From contig NZ_CP061038.1 in the NCBI RefSeq assembly GCF_014490665.1, forward strand, positions 4,052,501-4,116,500: 64,000 nucleotides of DNA. The letters run 5' to 3'. Below, piece after piece: positions 3,909 through 64,000 of the stretch (positions are counted from its first letter, which is position 1; every line of letters begins with the position of its first letter). Below the pieces are notes generated by a model that worked only from the letters and a program-made list of their open reading frames with translations, was not told where the DNA came from and made no database searches. The stretch is from Sphingomonas alpina (GTDB lineage: Bacteria > Pseudomonadota > Alphaproteobacteria > Sphingomonadales > Sphingomonadaceae). A program made the position numbers and the translations under genes.

Positions 3909-5507
3909 TCAGCCGCGCCGATCGAATGCCAGGTCGAGTGATACACTCCCATTGGCGGGCACCATGACTCGCCAGGCCTTGCGCCCCTTGCGCTGAATCA
4001 GCTTGTCGCTGGCCGAATCGACCTTGGCCGGTAAGGCGAGCTCGAACGTCTCGGGTGTCGCTCGTGCATTGGTCACCCGCACCTTGAAAGCGGCGCGCTG
4101 CTTCGTCGCAGGCAGTGCCACCGTTACGAAACGAATATCGTTGCTTGCGCCGGCGCCGAATTCGACCTCTTCACCGATCGCGCGATCCGCCAGGCTGCTC
4201 TCAGCGACCAGCATCGGCGCATTACGGGCGGATTCGAACACCGCCACCCGGCCCGCGGGCAAAGGCAAGCCGAGGCCCTTGGTATCGAGATTCTCGGTGC
4301 GCAGGACCAGGCTCGCCGCAATCGGCGGCGTTTCGCCGGCCGAGCGATAGCGCCAATTGCCAAAGTCGCCGGTATAGATGCGGTCGAAGCGCACCCCCTT
4401 GCGATCGATCATCGCCACCTGCTTGCGGCTCAGGGCGGCAACAGTGACCGGCTCTGGAATACGATACAGCTTCAGGTCGCCCAGCTCCTCCTGCTGCGCC
4501 ATCACTACCGGCGCTGGCGGCGGAGGGGGAGGCGGCGGCGGCGGCGGTGCCATTGCCCGCATCATCATCCTCTCGCGGCGCGACCCGGTCACGACAAGAT
4601 CTTCGCTCTCTTCGTCCATGCGCGGCGGCGGCGCCCGCTCGATGCTCCATTTCGGATAGGTGCTGGTGATGTCCATCGGCCAGCATTTCAGATGCAGCTG
4701 CGGCGCCGGTCCTTTCGGCAGCCGCGCCGCCGCTTCGCGGTGAAGGCCGCCCGCAACCGCCTGGGTATCGGCATCGGCAAAACCCTGGCTGCCGCCATTG
4801 GCGGCGGTCAGCCAGGCGAACAGGTCGAGCGTCTCTCCGTCATCGCCGATCCGCGCGACATAATTGGCCGACCAGTCAAACCCTTGCGCCAGATAGGAAA
4901 GCTGCACCGTCGCCGTCGCCGCCACGGCATTGTCGGTCGTGACCGACAGTGTCGGCTTGGCGGCCAGGTCACCGGGCACGCCGGGATAGGACAGCGATTC
5001 GGGCAAGCCCGAACAGGATAATGCCTCTGCGCCGGCAGCCGTGGTGATCACCACGCCGCCAGCCGGCCCGGACTGGATCACAGCCTCCTCGGTGGTGGTC
5101 TTGCCGGTGGCGCGACTGGTGCGGCGGATCGTCACGCTGCGCTTCAGATAGGCATCGACCAATGTCGCCGGCCCGAGCAGCCGCGCATCGCGATTCTTCT
5201 CGTTCACCCGGCGCGGCAAGCCGGTGACGATCGCGGTTTCCGGCATCATGCCTTCGGAAACCCCGGCGAAGCGGATCGTCGAGCGGCCGGCAGGAAGCGT
5301 GATCGTACGCGTCTCGGTGATCAGCGCATAGCCGCCCGGCCAGCCTGGGCCGATCGCCCGCTCGCCGCGACCCGGCTCACGATACAGCGTGACCGAGATC
5401 TTATCGACGCGCTCGGAATTGACGATGGCTTGCGAAGCGACGGGCGTCTGCGCCGCAGCCGGCGCCGCGGTTAGAAAAAGCGCGGAAAGGACGGCGATGC
5501 GGTGCAT
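3909..5507 (-). CDS. DUF4139 domain-containing secreted protein
   Basis: A 532-residue protein with an N-terminal signal peptide (MHRIAVLSALFLTAAPAAAQ), so probably periplasmic. Its body matches the DUF4139 type: an N-terminal beta-rich segment with VTLYREPGRG, a central region ending in YLAQGFDWSANYVARI, and a C-terminal segment with NARATPETFELALP. A run of about ten prolines lies near residue 325 between two conserved halves, preceded by a Met-rich stretch. DUF4139 proteins have no established biochemical role. It lies 4 bp downstream of a more distant paralogue and 1 bp upstream of a close one, so the three are likely co-transcribed. The start codon is supported by the signal peptide directly behind it. 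Confidence 0.85.
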   Translation of the reverse strand: MHRIAVLSALFLTAAPAAAQTPVASQAIVNSERVDKISVTLYREPGRGERAIGPGWPGGYALITETRTITLPAGRSTIRFAGVSEGMMPETAIVTGLPRRVNEKNRDARLLGPATLVDAYLKRSVTIRRTSRATGKTTTEEAVIQSGPAGGVVITTAAGAEALSCSGLPESLSYPGVPGDLAAKPTLSVTTDNAVAATATVQLSYLAQGFDWSANYVARIGDDGETLDLFAWLTAANGGSQGFADADTQAVAGGLHREAAARLPKGPAPQLHLKCWPMDITSTYPKWSIERAPPPRMDEESEDLVVTGSRRERMMMRAMAPPPPPPPPPPPAPVVMAQQEELGDLKLYRIPEPVTVAALSRKQVAMIDRKGVRFDRIYTGDFGNWRYRSAGETPPIAASLVLRTENLDTKGLGLPLPAGRVAVFESARNAPMLVAESSLADRAIGEEVEFGAGASNDIRFVTVALPATKQRAAFKVRVTNARATPETFELALPAKVDSASDKLIQRKGRKAWRVMVPANGSVSLDLAFDRRG

Positions 5508-10966: not shown

Positions 10967-12043
10967 TCAGGCCGCATCCAGCGTCGCCAGCCGTTCGGCC
11001 TCGTCCTCGGCGATCAGCGCGCTGACCAGCTCGTCCATCTCGCCCTCAAGAATCTCGGGCAGGCGGTGCAGGGTCAGGTTGATGCGGTGGTCGGTCACGC
11101 GGCCTTGCGGGAAATTATAGGTGCGGATCCGCTCCGAGCGGTCACCCGATCCGACCATCGATTTGCGCGCGCCGGCGCGCTCATTGTGCAGCCGCTCGCG
11201 CTCTGCCTCATAAAGTCGGGTGCGCAGGACCTTCAGCGCCTTGGCCTTGTTCTTGTGCTGCGATTTTTCGTCCTGCTGGATCACCACCAGCCCGGTCGGG
11301 ATATGCACGATGCGCACCGCGGAATCGGTAGTGTTGACCGATTGCCCGCCGGGACCCGACGATCGGTACACGTCGATGCGCAGATCCTTGTCGTCGATCT
11401 TGACGTCGACCTCTTCCGCCTCGGGCAGCACCGCCACCGTCGCCGCGGAGGTATGGATCCGCCCCTGCGCTTCGGTCGCGGGGACGCGCTGCACGCGGTG
11501 CACGCCGCTTTCGAACTTCAGCCGCGCGAACACGCCCTTGCCCTCGACCGAGGCGATCGCCTCGCGAAACCCGCCGGATTCGGAGCTTGAGGCGGAGATC
11601 AGCTCGACCCGCCAGCCCTGGCGCTCGGCATAGCGCTGATACATGCGGAACAGGTCGCCCGCGAACAACGCCGCCTCGTCACCACCGGTCCCGGCGCGGA
11701 TTTCGAGCATTGCCGCACGCTCATCGGCGGCATCGCGCGGCAGCAGCGACAGTGCCAACGCCCGCTCGGCGGCGGGCAGGGTCGCGCGGATCGCCTCGAT
11801 CTCCTCGCGCGCCATCTGCTTGATCTCGGGATCGCTGTCATTCTCCATGCCTGCAAGCACTTCGAGCTCGGCGCGCAACCGCCGCACTTCGCCCGCCGCC
11901 CGCGCGACCGGTTCGAGTTCGGCATATTCCTTCGACACCGCGACGAAGCGGTCGGAGGGCAAGTCGCCAGTCGCCATCTGCGCCTGCAACTCGTCGCGCC
12001 GCGCCTCGATCTGCGCGATCCGTGCTGCGGAGATGCCGGTCAT
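10967..12043 (-). CDS. prfA: Peptide chain release factor 1
   Basis: RF1 reads UAA and UAG stop codons and triggers hydrolysis of peptidyl-tRNA on the ribosome. The 358-residue protein has the stop-codon recognition tripeptide PAT at 188-190 and the universally conserved GGQ at 232-234 within [16 protein letters not shown], with the usual helical N-terminal domain. Length and motif spacing are normal for RF1. It lies 22 bp downstream of hisS and upstream of prmC, whose product would methylate Gln234. The three genes probably form one translation operon. Confidence 0.97.
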
Positions 12044-12065
12044 GCGGCCGGCCGGCCTTCAATCG

Positions 12066-13310
12066 TCAACGCAGCGCCTCCGCCAGGGCGTCGAGCGCCA
12101 CTTCTTTCTGCGTACCGGGGCCCAGTTCCTTGACGGCGGCGACGCCCTTTTCGAGCTCATTGTCGCCAAGGATAACGGCAAAGCGCGCACCCTGCGCATC
12201 CGCTTTCGCCATCCGCCGCTTCATGTTGCCGCGATACGCCATGTCGACGGCGACCCCGGCCCGACGCAAATCGGCAACGATAGCCAGCGCTCGCGCTTCC
12301 GCGGCGGCACCCATTGGAACGATCACTGCGTCGACCTTCTCGACCGCCGGCTCGTCCAGCAGCATCGCCAGCCGTTCGATCCCCGCCGCCCAGCCGATCC
12401 CCGGCGTCTCAGGCCCGCCTAGCGAACCGATCAGCCCGTCATAACGCCCGCCGGCAAGCACCGTGCCCTGTGCGCCGAGCCGGTCGGTGACGAATTCGAA
12501 CGCGGTGTGGCGATAATAATCGAGGCCCCGCACCAGCCGCGAATTGCGCGTCCAGGCGACGCCGGCCGCATCCAGACCCTTGGCCACGCTTTCGAAGAAC
12601 GCGCCCGCCTCGGGCGTCAGATAGGCGTCGATATCGGGGGCGGCCTCGGCGATCGGTCGGTCCTTCGGATCCTTGCTGTCGAGGATGCGTAACGGATTGC
12701 GGGTTAGCCGGTCCTTGCTGTCCTGCGACAGATCGCCTTCGTGCTGCTCAAAATGGGTAACCAGCGCCGCGCGCCAGGCATCGCGCGTCTCGGCATCGCC
12801 CAGCGTGTTGAGCTGCAGGGTCACACCGTCATCGATCTTGAGCTCGCGCAGCAGCTGATCGGCCAAGACCAGCAACTCGACATCCGCCGCCGCTTCGGGC
12901 GCGCCGATGATCTCGGCGTCGATCTGGTGGAACTGGCGGTAACGGCCCTTTTGCGGGCGTTCGTAGCGGAACACCGGCCCATGCGCGACGAGCTTCAGCG
13001 GCGCATATTGCTGCCAGCCCTCGGTCAGATAGGCGCGCGCGATGCCGGCGGTGAATTCGGGCCGCAGGGTGAGCGAATCGCCGCCGCGATCCTCGAAACT
13101 GTACATCTCCTTCGACACGACATCGGTCGTTTCGCCGAGCGAGCGCGCGAACACGGCGGTCGATTCGAAGATCGGCACCTCGACGCGCTGGAAACAATAA
13201 AGTCGCCGCACCCGCTCGAACGTGTCGATGACCTGCGCGAAGCGGCGCTGCTCCTCGCCGAAGATGTCCTGGGTGCCGCGAATGCGCTTGGGGGTTTCGA
13301 TACGTGCCAT
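12066..13310 (-). CDS. hisS: Histidyl-tRNA synthetase
   Basis: Class II aminoacyl-tRNA synthetase that charges tRNA-His. The 414-residue protein shows motif 2 ([21 protein letters not shown]), the histidine-specific [13 protein letters not shown], and motif 3 ([15 protein letters not shown]), followed by a C-terminal anticodon-binding domain with [16 protein letters not shown]. Length is normal. It is the first gene of the hisS-prfA-prmC run and is divergent from a DUF1345 gene that starts about 50 bp away, so both promoters must lie in that short gap. Confidence 0.97.
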
Positions 13311-13359
13311 TTGCGGCTGCTCTCTATGCGAGCGCGGGAAGGAGCGCTAGACCTTCGGC

Positions 13360-14007
13360 ATGGCAGCGAAAAACTCGGGTCTGCAGCTCGGCAACAGGAT
13401 CGCACCGCCGCGCTTCCTTGCCTTTGCTATCCTGTTCGTCATCGGCCTCGCCATTTTGATCCCGCCACTGGGCAAGGGATTGGGCACGATGGCGGCATTC
13501 GATATCGCCGCCGCCGCGTTCCTGGCCCTGGTCACGCCGCTGCTGGGAAGCAAGGCCGACGCGATGCGCGCCCATACCAAGGACAATGACGCCAACCGCG
13601 CCTTGCTGCTTGCCATCACCGCCACGGTGACGATCGTGATCCTGGTTTCGGTCGTGAGCGAGATGATGGGCGGCAAGAGCACCAGCTTTGGCACCGCATT
13701 GATCGTCGTCACGCTGATCCTCGCCTGGCTGTTCTCCAACACAATCTATGCGCTGCACTATGCGCACCTCTTCTACCTCGACAACGGCACCGGCAAGGAC
13801 AGCGGCGGGGTCGATATCCCCAAATGCTCCGAGCCCGACTATTGGGACTTCGTATATTTCAGCTTCACCCTCGGCATGACTTTCCAGACCTCGGACGTAG
13901 AGATCACCGCACCGCGCATCCGCCGCGTGGTGATCGGCCATTGCCTTGCCGCCTTCGTGTTCAACATCGGGGTGCTTGCCTTCACCATCAACGTGCTGGG
14001 CGGCTGA
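13360..14007 (+). CDS. DUF1345 integral membrane protein
   Basis: A 215-residue protein with five to six hydrophobic helices. The C-terminal half carries the DUF1345 signature: NTIYALHYAHLFY, then SEPDYWDFVYFSFTLGMTFQTSDVEI, and a final VFNIGVLAFTINVL. The SFTLGMTFQTSD segment is reminiscent of a K+ channel pore loop, but no channel function is established. The start is the first ATG after GGAGCG. It is followed by the M61 peptidase gene in the same direction after about 120 bp. Confidence 0.88.
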   Translation: MAAKNSGLQLGNRIAPPRFLAFAILFVIGLAILIPPLGKGLGTMAAFDIAAAAFLALVTPLLGSKADAMRAHTKDNDANRALLLAITATVTIVILVSVVSEMMGGKSTSFGTALIVVTLILAWLFSNTIYALHYAHLFYLDNGTGKDSGGVDIPKCSEPDYWDFVYFSFTLGMTFQTSDVEITAPRIRRVVIGHCLAAFVFNIGVLAFTINVLGG

Positions 14008-56133: not shown

Positions 56134-57816
56134 ATGACCGATACCGCCATTCATTCGTCCGCGTTCGACGCGCATGCCCATGGTCACGATCACGCGCATG
56201 ACGGGGATCACAAGCCCGGTTTCTTCGCGCGCTGGTTCATGTCGACCAACCACAAGGATATCGGCACGCTCTATTTGATCTTCGCGATTACCGCGGGGAT
56301 CATCGGCGGTTCGATTTCCGGCCTGATGCGCGCCGAACTGATGCATCCCGGCATCCAGTATCTCAACACCTGGGTGCATTATCTGCCCGGCGGCGAAGCG
56401 GGTCTCGATCACTCGCTGCATCTGTGGAACGTTCTCGTCACCGCGCACGGCCTGATCATGGTGTTCTTCATGGTCATGCCGGCGATGATCGGCGGCTTCG
56501 GCAACTGGTTCGTGCCGATCATGATCGGCGCGCCGGACATGGCGTTTCCGCGCATGAACAACATCTCGTTCTGGCTGCTGGTGCCCGCCTTCACGCTGCT
56601 GCTCGCGTCGCCGTTCTTCGGCGGCGCGGGCAATGGCTGGACGCTCTACGCGCCGCTTTCCACCTATGGCGAGCCCGGGCCGTCGACCGACATGGCGATC
56701 CTGTCGCTCCACCTCGCCGGCGCCAGCTCGATCCTCGGCGCGATCAACTTCATCACCACCATCTTCAACATGCGCGCGCCGGGCATGACCCTGCACAAGA
56801 TGCCGCTCTTCGTATGGTCGGTGCTGGTCACCGCCTTCCTCCTGCTGCTCGCGCTGCCGGTGCTCGCGGCCGCCATCACCATGCTGCTGACCGACCGCAA
56901 TTTCGGCACGACCTTCTTCGATCCGGCTGGCGGCGGCGACCCGATCCTGTACCAGCATCTGTTCTGGTTCTTCGGTCACCCCGAAGTGTACATCATGATC
57001 CTGCCGGGCTTCGGCATCGTCAGCCAGATCATCGCCACCTTCTCGAAAAAGCCGGTCTTCGGCTATCTCGGCATGGCCTATGCGATGGTCGCGATCGGCG
57101 TGGTCGGCTTCGTCGTGTGGGCGCACCACATGTTCACCACCGGCCTCAGCGTGAACACCAAGATGTACTTCACCGCCGCGACGATGGTTATCGCGGTGCC
57201 GACCGGCATCAAGATCTTCTCCTGGATCGCGACGATGTGGGGCGGTTCGCTGACCTTCAAGACGCCGATGCTGTGGGCGATCGGCTTCATCTTCATGTTC
57301 ACCGTAGGTGGCGTGACCGGCGTCGTGCTCGCCAATGGCGGCGTCGACGATTACATGCAGGACACCTATTATGTTGTGGCGCATTTCCACTATGTGCTGA
57401 GCCTCGGCGCGGTGTTCAGCCTGTTCGCGGGCTTCTACTACTGGTTCGCGAAAATGTCGGGGAAGAACTATAACGAGTTCCTCGGCCAGCTGCACTTCTG
57501 GGTGTTCTTCGTCGGCGTGAACGTGATGTTCTTCCCGATGCACTTCCTCGGCCTGCAGGGCATGCCGCGCCGCATGCCCGACTATACTGACGGCCTCGCG
57601 CACTGGAACTATATCGCGACCGTCGGCTACATGATCATGGGCGCGTCGATGATCATCTTCTTCGTCAATCTGTTCTGGTCTCTGGCCAAGGGCAGCAAGG
57701 CGGTCGACAACACCTGGGGTGAAGGCGCGACGACGCTGGAATGGACGCTGTCCAGCCCGCCGCCCTATCACCAGTTCGAGACGCTCCCGGTGATCGACGA
57801 CGGCGATCATCACTGA
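56134..57816 (+). CDS. coxA: Cytochrome c oxidase subunit I
   Basis: The catalytic subunit of aa3-type cytochrome c oxidase: reduces O2 to water and pumps protons. The 560-residue protein has twelve hydrophobic helices, the family segments [57 protein letters not shown] with the cross-linked His-Tyr pair, WAHHMFTTG with CuB histidines, and [12 protein letters not shown] with haem ligands. It is directly followed by a strong terminator; genes for assembly factors (ctaB, ctaG) and subunit III are not found downstream. Confidence 0.98.
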
Positions 57817-57840
57817 GACCGACGGGTCCCTAAAGCAACG

Positions 57841-57870
57841 AAACGCCCCGGTGATGAGCCGGGGCGTTTT
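57841..57870 (+). terminator. Rho-independent terminator after coxA
   Basis: AAACGCCCCGG (57841-57851) and CCGGGGCGTTT (57859-57869) form a perfect 11-bp stem with a 7-base loop, ending in TTTT. It lies 25 bp downstream of the coxA stop codon and ends the coxBA transcript. Confidence 0.9.
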
Positions 57871-57917
57871 GCTTATGGAGCGTTGCGAAGACCGGGCGGA
57901 TAGCTACGGTGGGCGGG

Positions 57918-58943
57918 ATGATCCCGTCGCCGCCAGTCCCAAGCCGGATGCTGTTCATTCGCAGCGTACGGCGGCCGACTGGCGGCAACATCAAGGTCCG
58001 CGATTATTTCACGCACGCGGCGGCGCATCCCGGCATCGACGCGACGATCTGGTTTCCGCCCTGCTCGAATCACCAGTCGAACGACATCTGGGCCGAGTTG
58101 CCGGCCGATCGTCTTGCCACAACGCCGACGATGGACGGCATCCGCTTCGTCTGTATCAACGGCAAGGACTGGTCGCTGCTGCCCGACGACACCGCCGCCG
58201 CGGAGATCATCCATTTCGTCCAGCACCCCGGCTATCTCGCCGACCCTGTGCTACGCGGCTATCTCGAACGGCCGGCGCGGCGCATCTGCACCACTCCGGC
58301 CCTAGCAGACCAGATCGCGCCGGTGGCGAACGGGCCGATCCATGTCGTGCCGATCGGCATCGACCCCGCCTGTTTCGCGCCGCGCCATCCGTGCAAGCGC
58401 CACCGCATCACCATTCTGGCCGCGAAACAGCCCGAGTTCGCGGCCCGATTGGACGAACAGTTGCGCGCGCGCGGTCACGAACCGGAGCTGCTCGACGGTC
58501 GCTGGCGCCCTCATGCCGAGCAGGTCGGCATCATTCGCGCCACCGATGTGCTGGTCGCGCTGCCCAGCCGGGTCGAAGGCTTCTATCTGCCGGCGCTTGA
58601 GGGGATGGCAGCCGGATGCATCGTTGTCTGCAGCGACGTCGCCGGCACGCACGGCCATTGCATTGCGCAGGAGACCTGCCTTCAGCCGCCGTTCGGCGAT
58701 CTCGATGCGCATGTCGGGGCGGTCCTGTGCGCGATCGAGGATCAGGACCTGCGCGCTCGCCTGGTGCGGAACGGCCGCAAGATGGCGTCAGGTCATGGCA
58801 TGCCAGCCGAGCGGCGCGCCTTCCATGCCGTGCTCGATCTGATACTCTCCGCCTCAGGCGACAAGCGCCGCGGCGGCGCTGAAAAATCCATGCTTGGTGT
58901 GCGTGCTGGGCGTGAGGCGCCGACCCAGCGCGCTCTGCCTTAG
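57918..58943 (+). CDS. GT4-like glycosyltransferase
   Basis: Encodes 341 residues with a GT-B-like layout. The N-terminal part has MLFIRSVRRPTGGNIKVRDYFTHAAAHPG, the middle HVVPIGIDPACFAP, and the C-terminal SRVEGFYLPALEGMAAGCIVVCSDVAGTHGHC, equivalent to the family E-x7-E region. It has no visible partner on the same strand. The start is taken at the ATG at 57918; an ATG at 57948 is an alternative. The last 90 bp overlap the convergent CYTH-like gene, so the true end of both proteins is in the same DNA. Confidence 0.75.
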   Translation: MIPSPPVPSRMLFIRSVRRPTGGNIKVRDYFTHAAAHPGIDATIWFPPCSNHQSNDIWAELPADRLATTPTMDGIRFVCINGKDWSLLPDDTAAAEIIHFVQHPGYLADPVLRGYLERPARRICTTPALADQIAPVANGPIHVVPIGIDPACFAPRHPCKRHRITILAAKQPEFAARLDEQLRARGHEPELLDGRWRPHAEQVGIIRATDVLVALPSRVEGFYLPALEGMAAGCIVVCSDVAGTHGHCIAQETCLQPPFGDLDAHVGAVLCAIEDQDLRARLVRNGRKMASGHGMPAERRAFHAVLDLILSASGDKRRGGAEKSMLGVRAGREAPTQRALP

Positions 58944-60143
58944 CCGCCACCCAAGATCCTCAAGCTCCGCAACCACCACTGCCGGATCGACCGGCGCTCC
59001 ATCCACCGACCCGATGAATTCGAGCTCGACCTGATCCAGCGTCCGCCCATCGGACGCGAAACATTGATCGATGCTGATTAGATAAGCACGGCCGCCAGGC
59101 AGCGCGAAGGGCAGCTTGGTCTGAGTCTTTTCGAACATGGCGAGGCATGTCCAGCCACGCTCGGCGAGGAAGGACGCGATCGGCACCGCTGCGCCGTCGC
59201 GGTCGGTCGTGCGCGAGGCCGATGTATCGCGCAGCAATACGGCACCGAGCGCCCGGCTGTTGCGCTTGCGCTTTTCGGACAGTCGCCCGCACGGTGTTTC
59301 GACCACGGTGCAGGCATCGCTGCCCGGGCGGTCACGGCAGAGATGATAACGGCGCATCCGCTCGATCCGGTGCGGCGGCGGCAGGAGCGGCCGCACATCG
59401 CCAAGCGCCCGCATGGCATCGTCGACCAGCGCGTCATCGATCCCGCCCTGCAGGTCGAATTTAAGCTCGACTTCGGGGAACCCACCAGGTGCGGGAACGA
59501 CCTTGTCGCGTAGCATATCCTGGAACAGCAGTTCGAGCGCGCGATTGGGTCGGCGCCTGACCAGATGGTCGGCAGCGACCGCGAGGCGCACATCATCGAC
59601 CCAGGCCTGTGTCGGCCCCTTGAACTCGATCCGCGGCCCCAATTGCCCGACCAGCCTGACTTCCCCATCTGTAGCGAGCCGGAACAGATGCCGATCGAGA
59701 TCGACCGTCACGCGTCGCGCCTCGGCCTCCGGGCCGGACGATGCGGCATCGGCCAGGCTGTGATGGATGCGATCCGATACCCGCACCGACAGTGGCCGAT
59801 AGAGCGTGCCCGCGACCAATATCTCGCCGTCCGGCCAGCGCAGCGTTGCGAACCCGAGCGAGCACATCTCCCCTGATTGCGCCTTGCGTTGCAGCTTGCC
59901 GTGCAGCCCATCTCGCAACAGCACCGCGATCGCCTCGGCCGAGACAATCGCCAGGTCGTGATAGGCGCGAAGGCGGATGATCGCGCCGAGATCGATCTCA
60001 TCGTCACGCGAGGGATGCAGAAATATGGTGATGGTGTGCCTGAACGGGCGCGCGATGACCGGAAAACGGGCCAGGCCGGCCCGCGCAGCGGCCAGGTCAG
60101 TCGCGAACAGGTCGCCGCGCCACTCGACCCGCATGTCACTCAT
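58854..60143 (-). CDS. Tandem CYTH/VTC-like domain protein of the lanthipeptide locus
   Basis: Encodes 429 residues that read as two triphosphate-tunnel-like domains. The second half (about 220-400) has the CYTH hallmark E224-V-E226-L-K228 (ExExK), then basic segments MRRYHLCRDR and RLSEKRKR and an acidic strand VELEF at 372-376. The first half (about 5-200) has the same order of elements: IIRLRAYHD, GKLQRKAQSGE, RRVTVDLD and RIEFK at 171-175, as in VTC polyphosphate polymerase domains. Known members hydrolyse or make triphosphates or polyphosphate; what this one does is unknown. The start overlaps the stop of the preceding 331-aa gene by ATGA. No signal peptide. The domain assignment is from pattern and needs a profile search. 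Confidence 0.6.
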   Translation of the reverse strand: MSDMRVEWRGDLFATDLAAARAGLARFPVIARPFRHTITIFLHPSRDDEIDLGAIIRLRAYHDLAIVSAEAIAVLLRDGLHGKLQRKAQSGEMCSLGFATLRWPDGEILVAGTLYRPLSVRVSDRIHHSLADAASSGPEAEARRVTVDLDRHLFRLATDGEVRLVGQLGPRIEFKGPTQAWVDDVRLAVAADHLVRRRPNRALELLFQDMLRDKVVPAPGGFPEVELKFDLQGGIDDALVDDAMRALGDVRPLLPPPHRIERMRRYHLCRDRPGSDACTVVETPCGRLSEKRKRNSRALGAVLLRDTSASRTTDRDGAAVPIASFLAERGWTCLAMFEKTQTKLPFALPGGRAYLISIDQCFASDGRTLDQVELEFIGSVDGAPVDPAVVVAELEDLGWRLRQSALGRRLTPSTHTKHGFFSAAAALVA

Positions 60144-61135
60144 GCCTGTCGTACCGCTCGCGGATCGCCGCGCACATAGAATGCCGCGAGATACGCCTTT
60201 GCCCGCACGTCGCCCTCGGGTTCGGCGACCAGCTTGAGATGTGCGACCGACCGCATCGCCCGCCCCTGCTCGGCCGGGCCGAGCAGCGCGTCGAGACTGC
60301 GCAGCGGTTCCGGCCAGGGTGGTCCATCCGCGTCCGTTTCGTCGGTCCAGGCGAGGATCGCGATGGCTTCGGCGGCGCTGCACAATTCATGCGTCTCGAG
60401 GCGGTGAAGCAACGCCGCCACCGCCTGTTCGGGCGGCGGCATATAGAGCTCGACTCCGATACGCGGCGACAGCGCGATGCCGAATTCCAGCGCGAGGATC
60501 AGCGATAATGGGAGGCCATCGACGATCGACAACAGACGATCGAGCGCGGCCAGCGGCCCGGCCCGACATCCCGCCGCCGCTGCATAACGGCGCAGCGGTG
60601 CGGCGGCCGATGCGCCGATATTGATCCGGATCGGCCGGCCGTCCCGGCCCAGCATCGCGCCGACATGGGTGATCCAGCTTTCGTCCGGCACCTGTGCCGC
60701 CGCGGCACCCATGAGCCAGTCGCGCATCGGCGCCGGCACTTGCCCAAGCAGGCCGGTCGCCAACGCAACCAGTGCCATATCCGCCAGCGCCGGGCTGGGC
60801 GACACCGTATAAAACAGAGCAGGTGCCGGCATATCACCGTGCAGATCATATTCCAGGCACAGCGCGCCCGGCGCGGCAGGTATCGCCGTCAGATCGAGCC
60901 CCGCGGGCAGATGGGCAGGGTGGCCGATGCTCAGATCGACGCGCCCGGCCTCATCACCCAGATGGCGTTCGAACAGCAGGAAGCGCGCCGGCGGCAGGCG
61001 CTTCGACACGGCGTGCAACCGGTCGAGCGCGACCGAACCGAACAGCGGCGGCACCAGCGCCGGCGCCAGGCGGTTGAGCATGGTCCCGACCGTCGGCGTC
61101 ACGCCGGGAATCAATTCGCCCGGACTCAATTCCAT
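60140..61135 (-). CDS. Unrecognised protein of the lanthipeptide locus
   Basis: Encodes 331 residues between the LanM gene and the CYTH-like gene, overlapping lanM by 10 bp and the CYTH gene by ATGA. I do not recognise the family. The sequence shows pairs of beta strands separated by helices: ALCLEYDLHG near 95, RPIRINIGAS near 170, LALEFGI and RIGVELYM near 218-231, and HLKLVAEPEGDVRAKAYL at 299-316. This layout and the Lys-X-Tyr-like end are reminiscent of ABBA-fold prenyltransferases, some of which modify peptides, but the similarity is weak and unverified. No signal peptide or membrane helix. Tight coupling suggests it acts with LanM. Confidence 0.6.
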   Translation of the reverse strand: MELSPGELIPGVTPTVGTMLNRLAPALVPPLFGSVALDRLHAVSKRLPPARFLLFERHLGDEAGRVDLSIGHPAHLPAGLDLTAIPAAPGALCLEYDLHGDMPAPALFYTVSPSPALADMALVALATGLLGQVPAPMRDWLMGAAAAQVPDESWITHVGAMLGRDGRPIRINIGASAAAPLRRYAAAAGCRAGPLAALDRLLSIVDGLPLSLILALEFGIALSPRIGVELYMPPPEQAVAALLHRLETHELCSAAEAIAILAWTDETDADGPPWPEPLRSLDALLGPAEQGRAMRSVAHLKLVAEPEGDVRAKAYLAAFYVRGDPRAVRQA

Positions 61136-63966
61136 GTCAGGACCGTGGGCAGCCGTCCCGGCACAGCGAGGCGCAGCAGACTATAGCCGATCCCGGCCAG
61201 ACCGCTGAACAATCCCGGCTTCAGCGCATCGGGTGCATCGTTGACGTCGAGCGCGAACGATCCGGTGTCACGCCAGCGCGCAAGGCGAGCCAGTGCGATC
61301 GCGGATGCCTGGGCCTGGAGCATGGGTCGATCGAGCACGCGTCCCGCCTCGGCCAGGAAATCGAGCCGCCCGAAATTGCCGCAGCACAGATGATCGATCG
61401 GACCGACACCATTACCCAAGGTCGCCGCGATCGCGGCGTCGACCTCCTCCAGAAACTGCGGATCGGCATGGAGGTCCAGCATGGCAAGGCGCGCCACGCC
61501 AATGCCCGGCGCGCCGTGGCACCACATCATCGAGCAGGGCGGCCGGCCGGTCTCCGGCTCTGGCGGGAAGCGCAGGTCCGGCCAGTTGCCCGCCGCCGTA
61601 TCGAACAGGCTGCGCTCGAACGCGATCGCCTCGCCGGCGGTGCGTCCGAACGCCGCATTGCCGGTCGCATGGGAGAGTCGCGCCAGCGCGAGGGCAAAAC
61701 CGGCAGCACCGTGCGACATGCCCGGCGCGCGCGACACTTCGGTCCATTGCTGCGTCAGGCGCCGGCCGGCGGCGACGGCCCGATCGATCAAGTCCGGCGC
61801 ACCAGTACGCTGATGCAGCGTGAGCAGCGAGACGATTGCGCCGGCCGTGCCGTACAGGATGTCGGCATGAGTGTCGGCGGCGATCGCCGCATCGTCGATC
61901 GCGCCGGCGATCCGCGTCGCATCGTCGAGCAGCGAGTCGTCGCCAAGCAGATCGGCGCAGCGGGTCAGCGCATACACTAGTGAGCCGAGACCGGCGCCAG
62001 CACCAATCCCGGTAATCCGCCCGGCCGCCGCATCCGGCCCATGCGGATCGAATGCACGGACCGGGGCCAGTGCCGCATGCGCTGCGTCGCGCAGGTCATC
62101 GCGCCGGCCGAGCCCCGCAGCGGCGGCGAGGAACAGCGCAATCCCGGCATTGCCCTCATAAAGCCCATGGCCCAGGCGCTGCGGTGCGTAGCAATCGGCC
62201 GCCTTGTAATAGTGCAGCCCGATCCACTGCGCGTTTCCCCGATCGAGGCCATGAGCGCTGGCGACGATCCGGTCGGCGATATCCAGCGCAGCCTGTGTCA
62301 GCTCATCCGACCGATCGCCCGGCTCCGGAATCGGCACCAGCGTGCGATCGCCATCGACGGTCCCGCGCCGGGTTTGCGTCGCCGCGACGCTCGCACCGAT
62401 CAGCGCGATCTGCCGCGCAAGATCGGGCGTGCCGAGCCGGTCGAACCGTTCCAGCATATCGGGATAGGCGCGGCGCAACCCGGATGCGTCGACCGTTGCG
62501 CCGTCGCATGCAGTCACCGTCACACCCGAGGTATCGACCGCGAAATACGGGATGTCGCGCCGCTCCAGCGCGGCAATCTCGGCCTCGCGCAGCCGGGCCC
62601 AATGCGGATCGGTAGCATCGACCAGCACGGGCAGCTGTTCGAAATGCGCGCGGTAAGCAGCGAAGCTTTCCAGGCAATGCGGTACCAGGCTCTTCTGCAG
62701 CATGGTTCCGTACTGCATCGTCCCGCGCAGCACGAACCGCGCCCGCGCCGCGCCCAGCGCGCGAAGTTCGTCCGATTCCTTCAACGCGCCGCGCCGCTCG
62801 ACCAGATTCCGGTACATCGCGGCAAAGCCATCGCTCAACGCGTCGAGATCGATCGCGGGACTGTCGGAAGCCTCGGCATCGGGCATCACCGGCTCACTCG
62901 CCAGCGTCATCGCGTCGGTATTGAGGGCGCGCCAGCGCTGACGCGCGAAATTGCCGCGCACCGCGCCGCGCCACCCAAGCGCGCTGACATCGCAGGCCCC
63001 GTCGCCTTCGGGTGCATGGATCCAATAGGGCAGCAGACCCGGGCGGACGACGCTGTCCCATTCCCAGGGATCGCCGAGATGGGCGCGATCGACCGGCTGG
63101 CCGGATAGCGCCGGGTGCAATGCGGTCTCCGCATCGATCATCACCAGCTCGCCGCCGCGGACGATGAAATTCTCGAAATGGCAATCGGTCGCGCCGAGCA
63201 GATACAGCACCGCCAGCAACCGCCCCGACGCTGTGTCGAGCTCTCGCTGTTCCGCAGGCGTGGCGGGCGCGACCGGCTCGATCGCCTGCATCCAGCCATA
63301 GTCGCCGCGCAGCAGAAAGGCCGGTCGGGTCGCGGATGGTTCGCAGCGCTGCCAAAAGGCGTGAAATGCGGCATCAAGCGCCAGATCGCGCGGCTTGTAG
63401 ACGATCGACAGGCCGGATTCGAACGCGAAAATCATCACCGAACGGCCATGGCGATGCGGATCGGACAGGGTCAGATGGAGCGACCGGATCGCACCCGGAT
63501 CGCCTTCGCCGCCCAGTATGCGGACGATCGCAGGAAGATCGGCGAACAGGCGCCCCGCCGCCTCGACCAGATGATCGTGGAAATGGCCCGTCTCGGTATC
63601 GAGGACATGAGCGAAGACCGGATGGCTGAGCCGCAGTCGCTCGAACCCGCCGGCGAGCATGTCCGCGACGAAGCCGTCATAGCGGACCCGCGACGCGCCT
63701 TCCTCGGGATTGGCCGCCCGAACCTCGCCATCGAGGAAGCGCGACAACAGGGTGAATCCCGGCGGGCGGCAGTCGTTGAACGCGCCCAGCAGCATCGGCA
63801 CGCTGCACGACACCAGACGGTGGAGCAGCGAGCGCTCGATCATCCCGATCGCCGCGGGCGCCAGCCGCTCGGCAAAGGCGGGATGCGCCTGCCCGAGCGT
63901 CGCCAGCAATGCATCCACCGTCCGGCCGACCAGCGGCGCCAGGACTTGCTCGAACGGCAATGGCAT
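61126..63966 (-). CDS. lanM: Class II lanthipeptide synthetase LanM
   Basis: A bifunctional enzyme of 946 residues that phosphorylates and dehydrates Ser/Thr in a precursor peptide and then forms thioether rings. The N-terminal dehydratase (DUF4135) has K191 in IVYKPRDL, D261-x-H263-xx-N266 in GATDCHFENF, DAET, and RGTMQYGTM, equivalent to the catalytic residues known from CylM. The C-terminal LanC-like cyclase from about residue 590 has the alpha-toroid Gly motifs and zinc ligands Cys816 (WCHG) and Cys861-Cys862 (HLCCGNFG). The third ligand is Cys, as in ProcM, rather than the usual His. The ATG at 63966 fits the family start, but the frame is open to the window edge, so it may begin further upstream. 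No precursor peptide or transporter is inside the window. Confidence 0.92.
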   Translation of the reverse strand: MPLPFEQVLAPLVGRTVDALLATLGQAHPAFAERLAPAAIGMIERSLLHRLVSCSVPMLLGAFNDCRPPGFTLLSRFLDGEVRAANPEEGASRVRYDGFVADMLAGGFERLRLSHPVFAHVLDTETGHFHDHLVEAAGRLFADLPAIVRILGGEGDPGAIRSLHLTLSDPHRHGRSVMIFAFESGLSIVYKPRDLALDAAFHAFWQRCEPSATRPAFLLRGDYGWMQAIEPVAPATPAEQRELDTASGRLLAVLYLLGATDCHFENFIVRGGELVMIDAETALHPALSGQPVDRAHLGDPWEWDSVVRPGLLPYWIHAPEGDGACDVSALGWRGAVRGNFARQRWRALNTDAMTLASEPVMPDAEASDSPAIDLDALSDGFAAMYRNLVERRGALKESDELRALGAARARFVLRGTMQYGTMLQKSLVPHCLESFAAYRAHFEQLPVLVDATDPHWARLREAEIAALERRDIPYFAVDTSGVTVTACDGATVDASGLRRAYPDMLERFDRLGTPDLARQIALIGASVAATQTRRGTVDGDRTLVPIPEPGDRSDELTQAALDIADRIVASAHGLDRGNAQWIGLHYYKAADCYAPQRLGHGLYEGNAGIALFLAAAAGLGRRDDLRDAAHAALAPVRAFDPHGPDAAAGRITGIGAGAGLGSLVYALTRCADLLGDDSLLDDATRIAGAIDDAAIAADTHADILYGTAGAIVSLLTLHQRTGAPDLIDRAVAAGRRLTQQWTEVSRAPGMSHGAAGFALALARLSHATGNAAFGRTAGEAIAFERSLFDTAAGNWPDLRFPPEPETGRPPCSMMWCHGAPGIGVARLAMLDLHADPQFLEEVDAAIAATLGNGVGPIDHLCCGNFGRLDFLAEAGRVLDRPMLQAQASAIALARLARWRDTGSFALDVNDAPDALKPGLFSGLAGIGYSLLRLAVPGRLPTVLTWN

Positions 63967-64000
63967 GGCTGGATCGACGCCCGGCAAGATGCTTGCCGGG

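Follow-up and report, generated by a model that had tools for sequence, protein, structure and literature searches.

A predicted tandem triphosphate-tunnel protein encoded with LanM and a putative ABBA prenyltransferase in Sphingomonas alpina

The window analysed here is a 64,000-nucleotide stretch of contig NZ_CP061038.1 of Sphingomonas alpina (positions 4,052,501 to 4,116,500). Near its end, three genes encode a class II lanthionine synthetase (LanM), a predicted ABBA-fold prenyltransferase and a 429-residue protein that is predicted to consist of two triphosphate tunnel metalloenzyme (TTM) barrels, a VTC-like one followed by a CYTH-like one. We propose, with somewhat less than even confidence, that this two-barrel protein is dedicated to a class II lanthipeptide pathway together with LanM and the ABBA prenyltransferase. 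The operon appears to make a prenylated lanthipeptide, which is a known kind of pathway, and the TTM protein would be a new accessory protein in it. The proposal is carried by four computational results: the operon layout with its gene overlaps, the two predicted folds, the invariant site residues and the recurrence of the cassette in distant genomes. The genes and the two halves of the TTM protein are as follows.

58854..60143, minus strand: tandem TTM protein, 429 residues (open reading frame, AlphaFold2 model and fold matches)
59490..60143, minus strand: N-terminal half, residues 1-218, predicted VTC-like tunnel (boundary approximate)
58857..59489, minus strand: C-terminal half, residues 219-429, predicted CYTH-type tunnel with eight long strands plus one four-residue strand
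60140..61135, minus strand: predicted ABBA-fold prenyltransferase, the middle gene, 331 residues, with an ATGA overlap with the TTM gene
61126..63999, minus strand: class II lanthionine synthetase LanM, whose start lies about 47 bases past the window end (position 12548 of L002, a stretch that reaches beyond the window)

In the list of open reading frames (ORFs), the TTM gene starts with an ATG at 60143 and stops at 58854, at the place and with the length given in the initial annotation. A longer ORF in the same frame with a GTG start (60383..58854, 509 residues) is probably not the gene. Near-full-length homologues begin at a position equivalent to the ATG, a few residues before EWRGD or EWKGD, and the ATG is therefore the likely start. 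The four bases ATGA are shared by the start of the TTM gene and the stop of the preceding prenyltransferase gene, and the LanM and prenyltransferase genes overlap at 61126-61135. The three genes form a co-directional run of LanM, prenyltransferase and TTM; the ATGA overlap and the last position in a LanM operon, both claimed before, hold in this layout. The homologue search found 23 proteins (the window's own included; lowest identity 41%), and Mucilaginibacter and a genome of the same order have orthologues with 37-38% identity. The TTM gene is therefore no chance ORF.

The TTM gene was located in four distinct genomes, namely the window's own, Sphingomonas sp. ERG5 (locus L004), Mucilaginibacter terrigena (G456, locus L005) and G525, which belongs to the same order as Mucilaginibacter (locus L014). 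In all four loci, the prenyltransferase gene is directly upstream of the TTM gene and overlaps it, LanM lies within 2 kb, and the order LanM, prenyltransferase, TTM is the same. The pairing with LanM first noted in the window is thus seen in 4/4 distinct genomes with the TTM gene. The precursor genes precede LanM in the window's cluster and in L004, and a precursor gene stands between LanM and the prenyltransferase gene in the Mucilaginibacter-type loci (L005 and L014). When the distant loci are compared, conservation is highest for the TTM protein, with 37-38% identity versus 31-33% for LanM and 26-31% for the prenyltransferase (the L005 prenyltransferase match spans residues 92-320 only). 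The TTM protein is very likely a member of this ribosomally synthesized and post-translationally modified peptide (RiPP) pathway.

The gene is rare. It was found in 1 of 61 relatives, 1 of 397 genomes of the family, 2 of 295 of the genus, 1 of 398 of the phylum and 2 of 350 of the Mucilaginibacter order; the sets share genomes, and four of them include that of the window. Across 84,980 species genomes, a scan gave at least two TTM loci (L004 and L005); this number is a lower bound, as the scan was limited to two peptide patterns and 80 candidate stretches. No homologue was found in viral contigs and plasmids (phage records were outside the search). Five of the 23 TTM proteins could be paired with prenyltransferases by matching contig sizes (7664, 9364, 16874, 33137 and 2818), the first pair (7664) being the window's own cluster. 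These pairs were not counted, as a matching size does not prove the same contig.

LanM was recognised by TIGR03897 (621 bits versus a cut-off of 304) and by the Pfam families DUF4135 and LANC_like; the LanM in L005 scores 888.9 bits with TIGR03897. Two precursor genes lie upstream of LanM and share its strand (L002 13037..12618 and 13591..13175), and the class II lanthipeptide assignment is supported by a precursor with a leader and a Cys/Ser/Thr core adjoining LanM. Seven precursors were found in the four loci, each with four Cys in the presumed core and with a single Tyr, preceded by N-P-(S), near the C terminus. Their Nif11 matches, where present, are below the cut-offs. The 331-residue middle protein has a predicted ABBA fold, with prenyltransferase fold matches over nearly its whole length. 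The fold is shared with DMATS/ABBA prenyltransferases (MpnD 4yla, CymD, FgaPT2 and the cyanobactin enzyme PagF 5tu6/6pgn), at 7-15% identity. In Pfam, NCBIfam and further sequence searches, no profile of a named prenyltransferase family matched significantly, so the assignment is drawn from the fold, and the middle gene very likely encodes an ABBA prenyltransferase. As its gene directly overlaps the TTM gene, the prenyltransferase is more likely than LanM to be the functional neighbour. The earlier idea of a LanM accessory stands in so far as the TTM protein belongs to a lanthipeptide cassette, but the tie it drew to the use of ATP by LanM leaves out the overlapping prenyltransferase.

Several further genes were observed around LanM and the precursors. 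A 414-residue protein is encoded beside the precursors, just beyond the window (L002 13683..14927, plus strand), and has an orthologue in ERG5 (L004 4373..3114, minus strand). It has no significant match in Pfam or NCBIfam, and tblastn of the Mucilaginibacter-type loci gave no match; by eye it shows a DFG-like motif and kinase-like features, perhaps SelO-like. LanM is preceded in L005 by an ORF with an MPAB_Lcp_cat oxygenase match (4377..5168; PF09995, 7.4e-13), and in L014 by an ORF that looks similar to it by eye (12354..11560). A partial LanM/LanC-like ORF of 437 residues lies elsewhere in the S. alpina genome (G000:C1:816620-817807; L010, L015), with 239.9 bits for TIGR03897, which is below the cut-off.

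The AlphaFold2 model of the 429-residue protein has a predicted local distance difference test (pLDDT) score of 88.9 and a predicted template modelling (pTM) score of 0.87. Fold comparison of the model, which follows a check proposed in the initial annotation, gave two tunnel barrels. The N-terminal half is a tunnel barrel closest to VTC, and the C-terminal half has the barrel fold of the CYTH/TTM hydrolases (PF01928). Seven of the eight VTC rows among the fold matches extend to residues 259-265 and one extends to 344. The ExExK motif is on the first strand of the C-terminal half (strand 224-231 in the model). The Mediator subunits Med18/Med20 are also among the fold relatives. Judging from the model, the protein very probably has a tandem TTM fold.

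Several results weigh against this interpretation. No VTC chain is among the Foldseek matches listed for the model, and for this reason the tandem fold is rated no higher than very probable; the second Foldseek match is an unrelated aromatase/cyclase. At the sequence level, no CYTH/VTC relationship is apparent. Pfam gave no family for the TTM protein at E values up to 10, and so no CYTH or VTC match, and NCBIfam gave no family. Against the PDB, phmmer returned three rows at chance level (E values of 0.48 or more) and hmmsearch returned zero matches. CYTH and VTC are absent from the nine families listed for the 23 members of homologue set A1, all of which are unrelated (best E 0.015). When the two halves were compared by hhalign with eight VTC and seven CYTH sequences, the probabilities were 0.1-1.2% (1.2% for the N-terminal half versus VTC, PF09359), which is no better than the unrelated control, a prenyltransferase alignment (1.2% for the N-terminal and 0.3% for the C-terminal half). 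As benchmarks, known VTC versus known CYTH gave 25.7% with one CYTH set and 0.4% with the other, and the two CYTH sets gave 81.8% with each other. The VTC sequences were drawn from a wider search, with PF09359 in 7 of 200 phylum genomes and in 0 of 41 genomes of the Mucilaginibacter order; of the nine hits, one (L029) scored below the cut-off and was left out. The two halves of the protein gave 13.3% with each other, and the parallel that had been drawn between them is supported by the fold but not by the sequence search. Because the sequence searches were all null, the CYTH/VTC assignment rests on the fold and the residue pattern. The initial annotation had counted a missing CYTH/VTC match against its own proposal; the match is missing in sequence and present in fold.

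The residue pattern was taken from alignment A3, which has 23 rows and a lowest identity of 37%. It excludes the fragment P0022 and the window's own record P0002 and was extended by the Mucilaginibacter protein. The main motifs are as follows.

59460..59474, minus strand: ExExK motif of the C-terminal half, residues 224-228 (PEVELK), with E224, E226 and K228 invariant in 23/23 rows
59019..59027, minus strand: second acidic pair ExE of the C-terminal half, residues 373-375, in 23/23 rows
60117..60131, minus strand: RxEx[RK] in the first strand of the N-terminal half, residues 5-9, with R5 and E7 in 23/23 rows and residue 9 being R in 22 rows and K in one
59619..59627, minus strand: ExK of the N-terminal half, residues 173-175, one Glu and then Lys, with E173 and K175 in 23/23 rows

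The ExExK motif had been reported at residues 224-228 and is present there (window 59474..59460). Besides its three residues, R262, R264, K291, K293, R305, K339, K343, D359, E373 and E375 of the C-terminal half are invariant in all rows, as are R5, E7, R57, R59, K87, R121, R125, R144, D148, R151, E173 and K175 of the N-terminal half. The C-terminal half thus carries an acidic ExExK and ExE pattern, and the N-terminal half a basic RxEx[RK] and ExK pattern. According to the accessible text of PMC4641920, hydrolytic TTMs have an acidic patch (including the ExExK Glu pair and a C-terminal Glu) that provides for a second, water-activating metal, whereas in Vtc4 the patch is replaced by basic residues and only the first metal site exists; this acidic versus basic contrast is described for AtTTM3 and YgiF versus Vtc4. 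By residue pattern, the C-terminal half is of the hydrolytic TTM type and the N-terminal half of the Vtc4 type, with the residue and metal roles assigned by analogy with the accessible text of that paper. E373 and E375 form the second acidic pair that, by the same analogy (PMC4641920), would complete two metal sites. E173-x-K175 and R5-x-E7-x-[RK]9 have the pattern of a single-metal Glu in basic surroundings.

Eight bacterial VTC sequences contain the motifs Rx[ED]xK (6/6 of those reaching the start), RxRxY (8/8), RxTxD (6/8) and ExK (8/8), whose order agrees with that in the N-terminal half. By residue pattern, no obvious equivalent of Lys-458, the catalytic residue of Vtc4, is seen in this half; no Lys is invariant between residues 176 and 222, and R201 is present in 22 of 23 rows. 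For the C-terminal half, two other CYTH activities were considered. In the accessible text of PMC8233210, HFxxxxExExK marks the class IV adenylyl cyclases and WxRxR the thiamine triphosphatases. A class IV adenylyl cyclase (CyaB) was rejected because residues 218-219 are A-P and not H-F, and a thiamine triphosphatase because residues 260-264 are I-E-R-M-R and not WxRxR. With neither motif present, the TTM phosphatase class is left. Judging from the model and by analogy, both tunnels are probably catalytic.

The C-terminal half shares the eight-long-strand tunnel, the first-strand ExExK, the C-terminal ExE and many invariant Arg/Lys with the CYTH/TTM triphosphatases (E. coli YgiF 5a60, SaTTM 7nsf and AtTTM3). 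Unlike them, it has no Pfam CYTH match, is encoded in a RiPP operon and forms a fusion with a second TTM barrel on its N-terminal side; in YgiF, the tunnel instead precedes a CHAD domain. The N-terminal half differs from the VTC polymerases (yeast Vtc4 3g3r; bacterial PF09359) in lacking an SPX domain, a clear SKY-type lysine and a profile match, and in being fused to a CYTH-like barrel. The second domain of Arabidopsis TTM1 (7z67) is a kinase, versus a second TTM here.

VTC makes polyphosphate from adenosine triphosphate (ATP) by moving phosphate to a phosphate acceptor. Our best guess is that the TTM protein performs phosphoanhydride chemistry that serves prenyl transfer. LanM would install the thioether rings, and the ABBA enzyme would prenylate the core, perhaps at its only Tyr. 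The N-terminal tunnel would use ATP to phosphorylate a phosphorylated substrate, for example to make the diphosphate donor from a prenyl phosphate, and the bond would be of the same type as VTC makes on elongating polyphosphate. The C-terminal tunnel would hydrolyse the pyro- or triphosphate by-product and so pull the reaction. This division of labour, in which one tunnel makes the donor and the other removes the by-product, is tentative and fairly unlikely to be right as it stands. The same low confidence applies to a wider form, in which the dual-tunnel enzyme builds a phosphoanhydride (a prenyl diphosphate, or a phosphate on the lanthipeptide) and destroys the by-product while the ABBA enzyme modifies the LanM product, so that the cassette would drive itself.

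The single conserved Tyr makes a residue-specific modification conceivable. The TTM protein could tailor the peptide directly by transferring phosphate or a nucleotide from a nucleoside triphosphate to the core with its rings (this Tyr, for example), with the other tunnel serving as a hydrolase or in leader recognition. Such tailoring would fit the cassette with precursor and LanM in 4/4 loci, the lone Tyr in the C-terminal region of all seven precursors and the ability of some CYTH enzymes (class IV cyclases) to cyclise nucleotides (accessible text of PMC8233210). However, the Tyr is equally explained as a prenylation site, and the adenylyl-cyclase HF motif is absent from the protein. For a TTM tunnel, a peptide as acceptor would to our knowledge be without precedent. 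Direct tailoring is considered unlikely, but it ranks not far below the division of labour proposed above. It is still less probable that the double barrel is a non-catalytic scaffold that binds the leader, an enzyme or phosphates and organises a LanM-prenyltransferase complex. The occurrence of the same fold in Med18/Med20 and the overlapping genes, which suggest co-assembly, are consistent with a scaffold, but in a scaffold one would expect the surface to be conserved, and it is the Glu, Arg and Lys of both halves that are invariant in 23/23 rows.

VTC and CYTH proteins are known from polyphosphate and triphosphate metabolism (accessible text of PMC4641920 and PMC8233210), and the gene near the operon might serve polyphosphate or tripolyphosphate turnover for ATP supply, with no peptide-specific role. 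Its rarity (2/295 genus and 2/350 Mucilaginibacter-order genomes) and its confinement to the cassette in 4/4 loci are the opposite of a housekeeping pattern, and this explanation is very unlikely. A role in self-protection or regulation, with the TTM protein inactivating the mature product or sensing the nucleotide status, has in its favour that no immunity gene or transporter was recognised by eye beside the cluster, where no dedicated search was made. However, immunity is usually conferred by membrane-bound proteins or by transporters, and we know of no immunity design with two invariant tunnels; a role of this kind is also very improbable. A wrong fold assignment, for which the silent sequence profiles and the aromatase/cyclase match could be cited, is hardly to be expected.

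LanM above the cut-off was found in 4 of 151 genomes drawn from the genus, the window's own included. G1049 has a prenyltransferase about 5 kb from LanM that is related to the window's type, and gave no TTM match in the genus search or by tblastn of its locus L037. G1052 and G944 (LanM cut by a contig end) gave neither a prenyltransferase nor a TTM match. Judging by their genome numbers, all three are among the 295 genus genomes searched for the TTM protein. The idea that a TTM helper is required for all lanthipeptide prenylation was therefore rejected, as G1049 has a prenyltransferase and LanM without a TTM match. Residue 225 of the prenyltransferase is Arg in the four locus-verified TTM-linked proteins and His in G1049 and its relatives P0039-P0046, and this difference may mark a different donor or acceptor. 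The unproven 2818 pair, if real, would link the TTM protein to a G1049-type prenyltransferase and so counts against this idea. By eye, the G1049 LanM cluster (L037 437..11171) contains arginase-like, terpene-cyclase-like repeat and several oxygenase-like proteins as well as cupins.

In the mpp pathway of Moorena, MppM (LanM) and then MppC (an ABBA enzyme) act on the Nif11-type precursor MppE (accessible text of PMC12715784). This pathway shares LanM, an ABBA-fold prenyltransferase and a long-leader precursor with the present cassette, and differs in that no TTM protein is mentioned in that text; the two are likened by description. In the papers listed from the open-licence PMC literature, we found neither a TTM protein in a RiPP pathway nor a tandem TTM, and the earlier statement that no pathway with this pair is described agrees with this. 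The accessible main text of a 2020 lanthipeptide mining paper contains no CYTH, triphosph or prenyl (PMC7268733). RiPP mining relies on domain recognition, and both the TTM protein and its prenyltransferase neighbour are invisible to sequence profiles. If the proposal is true, a peptide natural product would for the first time, within the reach of the literature search, have a TTM protein assigned to it, and lanthipeptide biosynthesis would gain a phosphate-handling enzyme class. A prenylated lanthipeptide would then be predicted from Sphingomonas and Mucilaginibacter, and polymerase-type and hydrolase-type tunnels could be compared within one natural chain.

A glycosyltransferase-like gene on the plus strand (PF00534, window 57909..58943) converges on the TTM gene and overlaps it by 90 bases at its 3' end. 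ERG5 shows an overlap of a similar kind (L004 12217..11198). By eye, the cassette is flanked by apparent cytochrome c oxidase genes on a coxA side and a ctaB side (window 56134-58943; L002 16000-16893), which suggests insertion into a cox locus, and cox-gene flanks were also seen by eye around the L004 cassette.
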